From Phreatobacter aquaticus (GTDB lineage: Bacteria; Pseudomonadota; Alphaproteobacteria; Rhizobiales; Phreatobacteraceae), in NCBI RefSeq assembly GCF_005160265.1, contig NZ_CP039865.1:4302828-4366827 (forward strand): 64,000 nucleotides of DNA, written 5' to 3'. Under the pieces are notes generated by a model that was given only the letters and a program-made list of their open reading frames with translations, was not told the origin of the DNA and ran no database searches. A program made the position numbers and the translations under genes. This document shows, piece by piece, positions 282 through 14,465 of this stretch (the stretch's first letter is position 1; every line of letters begins with the position of its first letter).

Positions 282-366
282 GCGCACGTGGTGGAACCGG
301 TAGACACACGAGACTTAAAATCTTGCGCCTTCGGGCGTGCCGGTTCGAGTCCGGCCGTGCGCACCA
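282..366 (+). tRNA. tRNA-Leu (anticodon UAA)
   Basis: The seven-base acceptor arms at 282-288 (GCGCACG) and 356-362 (CGTGCGC) pair fully. They are followed by discriminator A363 and an encoded CCA at 364-366. The D arm begins GTGGTGGAACCGGTAGAC, the anticodon loop is CTTAAAA with UAA at positions 34-36, the long variable arm (TGCGCCTTCGGGCGT) is typical of class II leucine tRNAs, and the T arm contains GGTTCGAGTCC. The 85-base length fits a class II tRNA. Confidence 0.97.
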
Positions 367-10601: not shown

Positions 10602-11264
10602 TCAAGCGCCGGCGCGGGGACCGACGATGGTCGAGACCGCATAGCCGCGCCACAGATCCGCCGCCTTGACCGTCCTGCCCTCATCCTGCGCCGCAATCGC
10701 CAGCACGCCGCGGAGTTCGGACCGGGGTTCGACGGAGAAGCTGCGGAGCCAGGCGCGAAGCGCCCGACCGAACCAGCCTGGCAGCCCGTCCTGCTCGCCG
10801 AAATCGACGATGTGCAGCCGGCCGGCCGGCGCCGTTGCGGCGAGCGCGCGGTCGATGGTCTCGCGCCAGGGCGGGATCATCGATAGGGTGTAGGAACAGA
10901 ACACCCGGTCGAAGGCGCTCTCGCCAAACAGCGCTTGCGGGTCGAAGGACGCGGCATCGGCCTTGGCCAAGTGGATACGCGAGGTGAGCCCTGCCCTTTC
11001 TACCGCCACCCGCGCCTCGCCCAGCATCACGTCGCTGATGTCGAAGCCGAAGAGCCGCGCATGGGGATAGGCCCGGGCCGCCCGGATCAGGTTCCGCCCG
11101 GTGCCACAACCGACCTCAAGGATCGAGCCACCTTCCGGTGGCCGCAAGTCGGAGATCAGCTGGTCGCGACCGAGCAGGTAGTACTTGCGGGTCAGGTCGT
11201 AGAACCCGACCTGCCAGCGATAGATCCGGTCCATGTGACCGGCAGCATCGACGGCCATCGTCAT
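10602..11264 (-). CDS. btaB: BtaB, homoserine-lipid N-methyltransferase
   Basis: A 220-residue class I SAM-dependent methyltransferase: motif I is ILEVGCGTGRN, then FGFDISDVML for the ribose-binding acidic residue, and SYTLSMIPPW in motif IV. The N-terminal HMDRIYRWQVGFYDLTRKYY is characteristic of BtaB, which adds three methyl groups to diacylglyceryl-homoserine to make the betaine lipid DGTS. Its ATG overlaps the stop of btaA (ATGA at 11261-11264), so the two are translationally coupled. Identity rests on both motifs and the strictly adjacent btaA. Confidence 0.88.
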   Translation of the reverse strand: MTMAVDAAGHMDRIYRWQVGFYDLTRKYYLLGRDQLISDLRPPEGGSILEVGCGTGRNLIRAARAYPHARLFGFDISDVMLGEARVAVERAGLTSRIHLAKADAASFDPQALFGESAFDRVFCSYTLSMIPPWRETIDRALAATAPAGRLHIVDFGEQDGLPGWFGRALRAWLRSFSVEPRSELRGVLAIAAQDEGRTVKAADLWRGYAVSTIVGPRAGA

Positions 11265-12511
11265 GCGCCGGTGAACTCGTAGAGATGGAACCCGCCATAG
11301 ATCGACGACCGGTCGCGCGCGGTCATCTCGCGGCAACGATCCTCGTCATAGCTGAACTGGCCCAGCAGGTCGGGATCGAGGCGGCCGGGGAGCAGACTCT
11401 CGACCGCCGCGGTGCGGAAGATCACCCGCGCGCCGGGCTTAGCGGTACGGACGATCTCCCGCCACAGCCGGTTCAGAACCTCATCGGTCATCCAGTCCTG
11501 CGCATCGAGAAGGACATAGGCATCCCGCGAGCGATCCGGGCATTCGGCGAGATGGTCGATGAGATTGGCGTGCAGGACCTCGACGCGATCGGCCCTCACC
11601 CTGACGGCCGCGAAATGCTCGGCCAGCAGATAGGGCGGGACCGAAGCGCCGCCCGGCGCGTAGGTCCGGCCAAAGGCCTGCCAGGCGAAGTAGTTGTCAT
11701 GGATCGGGAAATCGCAGGCGAGCCGCTCCAGCCGCTGGACCAGCACGTCTTCCATGCCAGCACCGGGGCGGGCCGCCGACAGGAGCGCGCGGTATTGGGC
11801 GGGCGGGATGCCGAGGCCATAGAGCGAGGCGGGGTTGCTGACCAGCCACCTGACCAGCCGCGATCCGAAGACCGGGCGCATCTCGCGCTCGAAGATCGCG
11901 CGCTGCTCGGCAAGCGAGGTCGCATCGACCAGCCGGCGCGGATTGCGGCCATGCAGGCGGGCTACCGCATGGCCCGTGCCGATCATCCAGCCGAGCAGGC
12001 CCTTCTTGTAGATGTTCCGGCCGAACTGGCCGATGCGGCGGCGCCCAGCGAGGTCGCGACGGTCCCAATAGGCCCGCGTCGCATCGTCCAGATGGGCCCG
12101 CAGGTGGCGCTCATAGGCGCGGATGTTGCCGTGGTCGTCAGCCTTGCCGAAGAACTGGAAGAAGGCGGTGTGGTCCGGCAGATGGCGCACGGCGGCGATC
12201 TTGAGGCGGTTCAGCGCGACGTGGTTCTCGTTGAGGTCGACTGCGGTGATCCGAGCGGGATTGGCTGTCAGATAGCTCAGGATGTTGCATCCGCCGGACG
12301 CGATGGCGACGACATGATCGCCCGGCCCAAGCCTGAGCGCTTCCATGTCGATCACCGGGTCTTCCCAGATCTGCGGATAGACCAGGCCCGAGAACATGCG
12401 CGTGAACAGCCGTTCCTGGAGCCCCGAGCGGCTGAGGGCGCGGTGTCGGGTGACGGCACGTGCCAGGTTCTGATGCGTTGCCCGACGCGTCTCGCTCGCC
12501 GCCATCGTCAT
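11261..12511 (-). CDS. btaA: BtaA, SAM:diacylglycerol 3-amino-3-carboxypropyl transferase
   Basis: A 416-residue DUF3419 protein. The nucleotide-binding region reads VVAIASGGCNILSYL followed by ITAVDLNENHVALN, and the N-terminal YPQIWEDPVIDMEAL and IYKKGLLG are typical of BtaA. BtaA moves the aminocarboxypropyl group of SAM onto diacylglycerol, the first step of betaine-lipid synthesis; BtaB completes it. In Rhodobacter and Sinorhizobium these genes allow phospholipids to be replaced when phosphate is scarce. The start at 12511 has GGGAGC six bases upstream. A candidate Pho box lies at 12582-12599. Confidence 0.92.
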   Translation of the reverse strand: MTMAASETRRATHQNLARAVTRHRALSRSGLQERLFTRMFSGLVYPQIWEDPVIDMEALRLGPGDHVVAIASGGCNILSYLTANPARITAVDLNENHVALNRLKIAAVRHLPDHTAFFQFFGKADDHGNIRAYERHLRAHLDDATRAYWDRRDLAGRRRIGQFGRNIYKKGLLGWMIGTGHAVARLHGRNPRRLVDATSLAEQRAIFEREMRPVFGSRLVRWLVSNPASLYGLGIPPAQYRALLSAARPGAGMEDVLVQRLERLACDFPIHDNYFAWQAFGRTYAPGGASVPPYLLAEHFAAVRVRADRVEVLHANLIDHLAECPDRSRDAYVLLDAQDWMTDEVLNRLWREIVRTAKPGARVIFRTAAVESLLPGRLDPDLLGQFSYDEDRCREMTARDRSSIYGGFHLYEFTGA

Positions 12512-12581
12512 GTTTCGCTCCCGATTCGAAAGTGCATCCGATCCGGGTAGGCTGGCCGTGTGACGGGAGAGCAAAGGTCTC

Positions 12582-12599
12582 GTGAAACACCCGTGACAA
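12582..12599 (-). promoter_or_regulatory. Candidate Pho box upstream of btaA
   Basis: On the minus strand this reads TTGTCAC-GGGT-GTTTCAC: two seven-base half sites with the same spacing (seven plus four) as the PhoB consensus CTGTCAT-N4-CTGTCAT. One half matches six of seven when C is allowed at the end, the other five of seven. It begins 70 bases upstream of the btaA ATG. Phosphate control of btaA is known from related bacteria; its operation here is inferred from position and match. Confidence 0.5.
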
Positions 12600-12665
12600 A
12601 GACAATCGATCTCGAGGGACAGAGTTCGAGAGAACCGATATCTAAACTTGATTCTATTTTTGCAT

Positions 12666-12804
12666 CAGAGGGTTAAGCTGAACCCTTAGGGTAAATATCG
12701 CCTATCGGTTGCCCTACCCCGGCGCGAGGGCTAACAGGAAAACAACCACTCTGTGTCCACGGAGCGTGTTTTCTGGCCCCGGCTTCTGCCGGGGCCTTTT
12801 TCTT
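12666..12804 (+). ncRNA. Candidate intergenic structured small RNA
   Basis: In the gap between btaA (leftward) and the molybdopterin gene, the plus strand can fold into three consecutive hairpins. They are GGGTT-AAGCTG-AACCC near 12670-12685, an extended hairpin at 12737-12774 (GGAAAACA pairing with TGTTTTCT around an inner CTCTGT-GTCC-ACGGAG stem), and a perfect nine-pair GC terminator stem at 12775-12796 followed by TTTTTCTT. No coding frame on this strand fits. The 5' end is approximate and no clear promoter was identified. Family unknown. Confidence 0.5.
12775..12804 (+). terminator. Rho-independent terminator of the small RNA candidate
   Basis: GGCCCCGGC, loop TTCT, GCCGGGGCC, then TTTTTCTT: a perfect nine-base stem with a U tract on the plus strand. 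No plus-strand protein gene is upstream in this gap, so it most likely ends a short non-coding transcript. Confidence 0.8.
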
Positions 12805-12851
12805 GAGCCCAGCCGGCATTGACCATAGCGGCTGCGCGTCAAGATTTGCCG

Positions 12852-14465
12852 TCACTCCGCGTCGAAGAGCCCACCGGCAGCCGCCAGCGCTTCCGGCGTG
12901 TCGACATCGAGATGGACCCCGTCACCATCGACATGCACCTCGGCAATCGCTTCCGGCGCTGCCGCGAGAATGGCGCGCCCACCCTGGTCGCCACTGACGC
13001 GCCCAAGCTCGGCAAAGAACCGCCGCCCCCACAGTACCGGATTGCCGCGCCGCCCGTCGGCGATCGGCACGACCACATGATGGCCATGCGCCGGATCGAA
13101 GGCCCGGACCAGCCCGGCCACCAGCGCGGATGACACACGCGGCATGTCGCCGAGCAGCACGACGGCGGCATCCACGCTGTCGCCCAGCGCCGCAATGCCG
13201 GTGCGCAACGAGGTCGAAAGCCCCTCGGCAAAGTCCGGATTGTGGACGAACCGCACTGGCAGGCCAGCCAGTGCCGCCTCGATCCGCTCCGCCTGATGGC
13301 CGGTCACCACCACGATCTCGTCGAGGCCACCATCGCGGGCCGCCTCCACCGCGCGGCGGACCAGCACAACGCCGTCCATCGTGGCCAGCAGCTTGTTCGG
13401 ACCGCCCATGCGGGTGGACCGGCCAGCCGCCAGAACGAGGCCGGCAATGCGCGGCTTCGGCGGTGCCTCCGCCAGGCCTTCGCGCGGCTGCGGTCGCGAC
13501 ACGATCTCCATCAGGAGCCCCCCGACCCCCATGCCGGTCACATCCTCGCGCGTCACATCGAGACCGGCCAGCAGACGCATCAGCACCCAGTCGAAGCCGT
13601 TCTCCTTCGGCGAGCGGGCGCAGCCCGGGGCCCCGATCACCGGGATATCACCGAGTTTGCCGATCATCAGGAGATTGCCGGGATCGACCGGCATGCCGAG
13701 ATGCTCGACCCGCCCGCCTGCCGCCTCCAGCGCCGCCGGTATGACGTCGCGCCGGTCGGCGATGGCGGAAGCACCGAACACCAGGATCAGGTCCGCGCCC
13801 TCGGCCACAGCCCTGACAATGGCCGACGCGAGTTCCGCCGAATCGTGAGCGACGCGATGGTCGGCGACGATAGCGGCATCCGCTGGAGCCAGCCGTGCGG
13901 CCGTCACCTTCAGCGTCTTCTCGACCACCTTCGCCGGCAGGCCCGGCAGCAGTGTCGAGATTACCGCCACCCGCCGCAGTCGAAACGGCTGGACCCGCAC
14001 GAGGTCACCATCCTCTGTCGCGCGGATCACCGTTTCGGCAGCGACGGCATAGGGAATGATCTTGACGGTTGCGATCATCTCGCCGGGTTCGACCACCGCG
14101 AAGGCTGGCAAGGTCGCGAGTGTAATCGCTTCGTCAATCCGGTTCAGCCGGTCGATACTGGCGCGCTCGACCACCAGCACACCGGCGACCTCCGCGAAGA
14201 GATTGGACCTGCCGGTGAAGGCCTCGTCGACGCGCACCCCAGGGCCCGCCACCGCAAGGGCGATCCCCCCGGCCGCCGCATCCTCGGGGATGTCGTCGGG
14301 TTCAGCCAGCGCGACCGTCACGGTCTCGACGCCCGCAGTCCTCATCGCGTCAATCTCGGCCTGCGAGATCAGCGTGCCCTTCTTGAGCACAAGCCCGTCC
14401 GTGCGCACCGCATGGGCGACGACGCCGCCCAGCGCCTCGCCGACCGGGACGGGCCCGAACCTCAC
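12852..14465 (-). CDS. Molybdopterin-binding protein fused to MobA-like nucleotidyltransferase
   Basis: A 537-residue two-domain protein. Residues 1 to about 330 resemble the MoeA/MogA molybdopterin-binding fold, with GVETVTVAL and the later DLILVFGASAIADRRDV segment. From about residue 345 the MobA/MocA nucleotidyltransferase begins with GLVLAAGRSTRMGGPNKLL and continues with LGDMPRVSS and GRRGNPVLWG. Such proteins cytidylate the molybdenum cofactor for XDH-type enzymes. The GTG start at 14465 overlaps the stop of the XdhC gene (GTGA), so the two are coupled. It belongs to the maturation block for the molybdenum hydroxylase encoded at 21.6-25.4 kb. Confidence 0.85.
   Translation of the reverse strand: MRFGPVPVGEALGGVVAHAVRTDGLVLKKGTLISQAEIDAMRTAGVETVTVALAEPDDIPEDAAAGGIALAVAGPGVRVDEAFTGRSNLFAEVAGVLVVERASIDRLNRIDEAITLATLPAFAVVEPGEMIATVKIIPYAVAAETVIRATEDGDLVRVQPFRLRRVAVISTLLPGLPAKVVEKTLKVTAARLAPADAAIVADHRVAHDSAELASAIVRAVAEGADLILVFGASAIADRRDVIPAALEAAGGRVEHLGMPVDPGNLLMIGKLGDIPVIGAPGCARSPKENGFDWVLMRLLAGLDVTREDVTGMGVGGLLMEIVSRPQPREGLAEAPPKPRIAGLVLAAGRSTRMGGPNKLLATMDGVVLVRRAVEAARDGGLDEIVVVTGHQAERIEAALAGLPVRFVHNPDFAEGLSTSLRTGIAALGDSVDAAVVLLGDMPRVSSALVAGLVRAFDPAHGHHVVVPIADGRRGNPVLWGRRFFAELGRVSGDQGGRAILAAAPEAIAEVHVDGDGVHLDVDTPEALAAAGGLFDAE

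Follow-up and report, generated by a model that had tools for sequence, protein, structure and literature searches.

The window, a 64,000-nt stretch of the Phreatobacter aquaticus genome, probably carries on its plus strand the gene of a genus-specific, non-coding small RNA (sRNA) of about 60 nt, which would have its own promoter, end at a terminator at 12775-12804 and act in trans. The putative gene lies in a conserved unit that is present in one copy in each of the 12 Phreatobacter genomes. The unit consists of an upstream block TTARGSTSAACCNKTAGGGTAAA (at most one mismatch), a TTG 13 bases further along, a hairpin that hardly varies (ACTCYGYGTCCACGGAG), and finally a GC terminator leading into 5-8 T. 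A candidate small RNA had been proposed here in an earlier note on this DNA, and comparison of genomes supports the proposal well: the unit occurs in 12/12 genomes at the same place, with compensatory changes in the terminator and an upstream element of its own. The features of the locus are as follows.

11261-12511, minus strand: btaA (DUF3419, PF11899, 375.6 bits), divergent neighbour with its start codon at 12511, found in 8/12 Phreatobacter genomes
12673-12695, plus strand: conserved upstream block TTAAGCTGAACCCTTAGGGTAAA, read as a promoter or activator element; tandem TTARGGT...TAGGGT, 13 bp apart
12709-12714, plus strand: candidate -35 TTGCCC, 13 bases past TAGGGTAAA; TTGTGC, TTGTGT or TTGTCA in relatives; putative -35 role
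12732-12737, plus strand: candidate -10 TAACAG, 17 bases past the candidate -35; GATAGA, CATAGA, CAGTGT, CACGGT or CATGGT in relatives
12744-12804, plus strand: proposed small RNA of about 58-61 nt, from 5' AACCACUCUGUGUCCACGGAG... to the U tract; 5' end predicted, 3' end taken from the terminator
12749-12764, plus strand: core hairpin, CTCTG-TGTCCA-CGGAG in the window and CTCCG-CGTCCA-CGGAG in 11 relatives
12775-12796, plus strand: intrinsic terminator stem-loop, 9 GC pairs with loop TTCT; 7-12 pairs across 12/12 genomes
12797-12804, plus strand: U tract TTTTTCTT; 5-8 T among the 12 genomes, right after the stem or one A later
12852-14465, minus strand: moc, encoding a molybdenum-cofactor NTP-transferase protein (PF12804 and PF00994); convergent neighbour, beside the unit in 12/12 genomes

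Conservation and distribution of the unit

An RNA model built from the eight btaA-bearing loci recovered the unit in 12/12 genomes of the genus, including all four Phreatobacter genomes without BtaA. The core CTCYGYGTCCACGGAG has exactly one perfect copy per genome, in 12/12 and always at the locus of the unit; the core search returned five extra matches with one mismatch, against 7 matches at one mismatch or fewer for the backward control. The block is likewise present at the locus in one copy in 12/12 genomes with 0-1 mismatch, and four copies with 2-3 mismatches occur elsewhere (backward-pattern controls, 0). The pattern TAGGGTAAA-N13-TTG has 17 matches in the 12 genomes, 12 of them at the unit locus and 5 elsewhere, again with no match in the backward-pattern controls.

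Invariant columns make up 15/17 of the core and 16/23 of the block, figures that are in part a product of construction, as both segments were located with patterns allowing few variants; this caveat does not touch the finding that each genome has just one such place, the same in all. Mean pairwise identity is 0.92 in the block vs 0.42 in the 60 bases upstream of it; identity is 67% in the stretch directly after the block and 40-49% in the remaining spacers and flanks. Block and core are 52-54 nt apart in 10 genomes; in G003 and G008 the distance is 90 nt.

Outside the genus, the hairpin-plus-T-run pattern was searched for in 397 genomes of the order and in a class sample of 385 genomes, which includes four from the same order. 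It occurs in 12 of the 397, all Phreatobacter, and is absent from the other 385; in the class sample its one occurrence is the window itself, and it is absent from the other 384. Being exact, patterns of this kind may overlook diverged relatives. Allowing up to two mismatches, the block was found in 11/297 genomes, all Phreatobacter (the window's own block diverges further). Searched in a named genome collection, the exact 22-mer core is found on five contigs (four Phreatobacter MAGs and 'Rhizobiales bacterium Ga0077556'), all of which correspond in length to contigs of genomes placed in Phreatobacter. A search of plasmids gave zero matches.

When 101 genomes were searched directly at the DNA level, five matched in addition to the window's own, and each match covered 27-43 bases at the terminator. 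Of 347 genomes searched with the R1 RNA model, 161 had a match at E <= 1; the best one outside the genus (G208, 38.5 bits) was read and rejected, having only the terminator in common with the unit. The weakest true members, G003 (38.9 bits) and G008 (33.4 bits), score about the same as G208, so that they are counted as members for their exact core, their block and their synteny, not for the score. Together, these searches suggest that the unit is genus-specific: it is kept in all Phreatobacter examined, and none was seen outside the genus. Restriction to a genus or family is the rule for sRNAs in Rhizobiales, with 32/39 of the families studied limited to Rhizobiaceae (PMC3927594).

Folding, covariation and the upstream region

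On the plus strand, 12666-12804 has a folding energy below all 200 dinucleotide shuffles (z -3.52), and the 67-nt hairpin-plus-terminator part alone has a z of -6.04 (0/200 shuffles as low). In the 12 genomes this part folds below shuffles in every case (z -1.74 to -6.04). The core hairpin appears in the minimum-energy fold in 10/12 genomes when the short form is folded, and in 7/12 plus one partly in the form running from the block to the T run. A terminator scan gave 2 sites vs a shuffle mean of 0.7 (sd 0.9), which proves little by itself; the weight is carried by conservation.

The earlier note had described a composite hairpin at 12737-12774 followed at once by a perfect GC terminator stem with a U run, on a strand where no protein gene explains the terminator. 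All of this was found as described. The inner hairpin of the composite structure is 12749-12764, the terminator stem is a perfect 9-bp GC helix (12775-12783/12788-12796) leading into TTTTTCTT, and both btaA and moc lie on the minus strand. Across the 12 genomes the stem sequences are CCCCGGG, GGCCCCGGC, TGCCCTGGATCG, TGCCTCGGATCG and GGCCTCGAAC, all of which pair; the stems have 7-12 pairs, and on the plus strand a run of 5-8 T begins right behind the stem or one A later in 12/12. Thus a GC stem with a U tract, as expected of an intrinsic terminator, is present in 12/12 genomes with its pairing kept.

In the model-fitted alignment 97.9% of the cells pair vs 93.9% in shuffles, and 8 cells are changed on both sides vs 2.2 in shuffles (0/500 shuffles as high). 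Every slid control scores lower, and compensatory changes in the terminator also appear in an independent tabulation of the stems. Two of the five covariation measures are not above shuffles, namely double-change pairs (3; 63/500) and further pair types (6; 464/500). All of the covariation falls within the terminator, and the alignment is itself biased towards its structure. No covariation was seen in the core hairpin, where 4/5 pairs never vary among the 12 genomes and the sole change in the stem, C-G to U-G, is in the window's own genome; it is too invariant to be able to show any. Base-pairing conserved in relatives, on which the earlier note had made its proposal depend, is therefore borne out by the terminator, and the core hairpin is silent on the point.

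The same note counted three consecutive hairpins. The composite hairpin and the terminator stand; the first hairpin, an inverted repeat AGGGTT/AACCCT at 12669-12686 (plus strand), does not. It forms 7 pairs in the window, 6 in G006 and 5 in G010 (both in a shifted register), and at most 4 in the other nine genomes. As this folding is mostly lost while the sequence of the block is conserved, we read the region as DNA: 12669-12686 overlaps the conserved DNA block and is better read as a promoter or activator element than as RNA structure. A small protein was also considered and rejected, since the short GTG/TTG frames on the plus strand that overlap the block sit in unconserved flank (1/60 columns invariant).

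If TTGNNN is taken as the -35 element and the spacer as 17 nt, the hexamer reached has A as its second base in 12/12 genomes. These -10 candidates match the consensus weakly, and because a sigma-70 consensus promoter scan over 11800-13600 found none, we only infer their -10 role. The implied +1 falls on (C)AAC(C/A)AC right before the core in 10/12 genomes; G003 and G008 have a leader longer by about 36-38 nt. The RNA would then measure 58 nt in the window, counted to the end of its T5 run, against 63-68 nt in nine relatives and 99-100 nt in G003 and G008. The -35, -10 and +1 positions form a consistent model with a predicted start site which, if right, leaves the window's outer stem (12737-12745 with 12766-12773) mostly outside the RNA. 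On a second reading of the promoter, TAAARAT in the block may be the -10 element, giving an RNA of about 100 nt.

Neighbouring genes and independence from btaA

In 12/12 genomes moc is convergent on the unit and the left neighbour is divergent (btaA in 8, a glycosyltransferase gene in 4). The btaA-bearing loci share the order moc-unit-btaA, and in the four genomes without BtaA the glycosyltransferase gene is again on the minus strand. In these 4/12 Phreatobacter genomes btaA and btaB are missing between the glycosyltransferase gene and moc (L050-L053); from the gene order, the betaine-lipid pair btaA/btaB is read as having been gained or lost at the spot where the unit lies.

The earlier note had raised a link to phosphate from the position of the unit beside btaA. 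BtaA matches are found in 8/12 Phreatobacter genomes and the unit in 12/12, so the link is not supported: the unit persists in the four genomes that lack a BtaA match, and its place beside btaA is incidental. A PhoB- or btaA-linked element was rejected on the same counts, as it would be expected to occur with btaA.

PhoB controls btaAB in Sinorhizobium, according to the excerpted text of PMC3972451. In seven relatives (L008-L014), GTCAT/TTCAC repeats spaced by 11 bp lie about 60-90 bp upstream of btaA and resemble PHO boxes. Scored against mononucleotide shuffles, these 11-bp repeats beat the shuffles in 7/7 relatives (0-44/500 as high). The corresponding repeats in the window (12575-12605, minus strand) are weak and no better than shuffles (224/500 as high).

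Proposed mode of action and related RNAs

In all 12 genomes the unit has the layout of a trans-encoded sRNA: it is intergenic, has its own upstream element, putatively a promoter, and its own terminator, and is not the tail of a plus-strand gene. Under the model that we favour, an activator recognising the tandem block probably switches the sRNA on. Transcription of the plus strand would start from a dedicated promoter formed by the block (12673-12695) and the -35 and -10 candidates, and the sRNA (about 12744-12803) would end at the intrinsic terminator (12775-12804). Hfq would hold it through the U tail, and action would most likely be in trans, with the invariant hairpin (loop YGUCCA, preceded by single-stranded AACCA) pairing with target mRNAs or binding a protein partner. 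Hfq is encoded in 12/12 genomes (PF17209 over its cut-off), and the sRNA is probably Hfq-dependent.

Two alternatives deny that the sequence acts as a plus-strand RNA, and we regard both as very improbable. The hairpins could be a feature of the minus strand, as 3'-end structures of the moc mRNA or as a btaA leader, given that moc and btaA are both on that strand with the region between them. With A-C read for G-T, the minus-strand terminator stems equal or exceed the plus-strand ones in length in 10/12 genomes, so that the strand call rests mainly on the T run, which follows the stem on the plus strand only, in 12/12. In G005 and G011, however, the stem has 12 pairs on the plus strand vs 6 on the minus strand, the U-G pair of the window's core becomes A-C on the minus strand, and the unit remains where btaA is absent. 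The core could instead be a DNA operator, because CTCCGCGTCCACGGAG is near-palindromic and invariant. Yet it has one perfect copy per genome in 12/12, always between block and terminator, and the window's C-G to T-G change keeps the RNA pairing but breaks the DNA symmetry.

The remaining alternatives accept the RNA and differ on what it does. That it acts by binding a protein, through titration or as a scaffold, and not by base-pairing is unlikely. On this account recognition by a protein would keep the entire hairpin, along with its stem, from changing, and indeed the stem sequence itself is kept (4/5 pairs invariant in 12 genomes) and the terminator varies freely. Against it, no known protein-binding motif was identified in the hairpin, and invariance is also common in the seeds of base-pairing sRNAs. 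We give somewhat less credence still to an action in cis on moc, either as antisense to its 3' tail or by convergent transcription that curbs read-through from moc into btaA. The geometry is suitable: moc is beside the unit in 12/12 genomes and convergent with it, and the U tract lies about 50 bp from the moc stop. A cis antisense RNA, however, needs no invariant hairpin sequence. Furthermore, 18 moc 3' flanks from other families (18 of the 126 non-genus genomes with a match) contain neither block nor core, with one unrelated loose hairpin (L100), and so moc has no general need of the unit.

A scan with Rfam 15, which the earlier note had suggested as a check, assigned no family: nothing reaches a gathering cut-off at the unit locus, and five weak matches in the loci of the 12 relatives are all below cut-off. 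Across the whole window, only a tRNA gene at 282-363 (plus strand) passes an Rfam gathering cut-off. Identity with MmgR/suhB (RF00519) was rejected at 20.9 bits vs a cut-off of 41. In the excerpted text of PMC7143759, MmgR is an Hfq-dependent 77-nt trans-sRNA of Rhizobiales, which the unit resembles in its similar size, in a hairpin followed by a GC terminator and U tail, and in being intergenic and alphaproteobacterial. MmgR/suhB is nevertheless a separate gene elsewhere in the genome, over cut-off in 11/12 Phreatobacter genomes. The copy in the window's own genome lies outside the window (G000:C1:192433-192509, 66 bits; L080 1501-1577).

As described in the excerpts of PMC3927594, and compared by description only, RFMSmelB053 of Sinorhizobium is similar in having adjacent hairpins, one conserved in sequence and the last a bona fide terminator; it is multi-copy and wider in Rhizobiales, unlike the unit with its one copy in one genus. 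SorY (RF02651), anti-hemB (RF02837) and the Betaproteobacteria toxic sRNA (RF02278) are short as well and carry a GC terminator hairpin plus a U tail, but the unit is far below their cut-offs and the alignments lie mainly on the terminator. A search of one library of papers found none mentioning small RNAs in these Phreatobacter bacteria. The unit leaves general knowledge of sRNAs unchanged; what it offers is a concrete, single-copy and genus-wide sRNA candidate, with a probable promoter, in freshwater bacteria.

The block, as TTAGGGT...TAGGGTAAA-N13-TTG, also lies upstream of an ORF for a repeat protein, judged by eye to be secreted, in 5/12 genomes (G001, G002, G004, G007 and G009), although these five ORFs look like one gene family and perhaps amount to two independent sightings. 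The ORF has PAQYG-type repeats and a CETC[YF]R start (L068-L071 near 1501-1523, L127 near 1501), and the one member scanned has no Pfam family. In the window's own genome the exact TAGGGTAAA-N13-TTG form was not seen elsewhere. It is conceivable, if doubtful, that the sRNA and the PAQYG gene form a small regulon in which a single activator would bind TTAGGGT boxes arranged in tandem (13 bp apart) and set at a fixed distance, TAGGGTAAA-N13-TTG, ahead of a weak promoter, with the sRNA as the post-transcriptional arm of a Phreatobacter-specific envelope response. The recurrence of the block before a secreted-protein gene gives a direct handle on the regulator and is the best lead to it.
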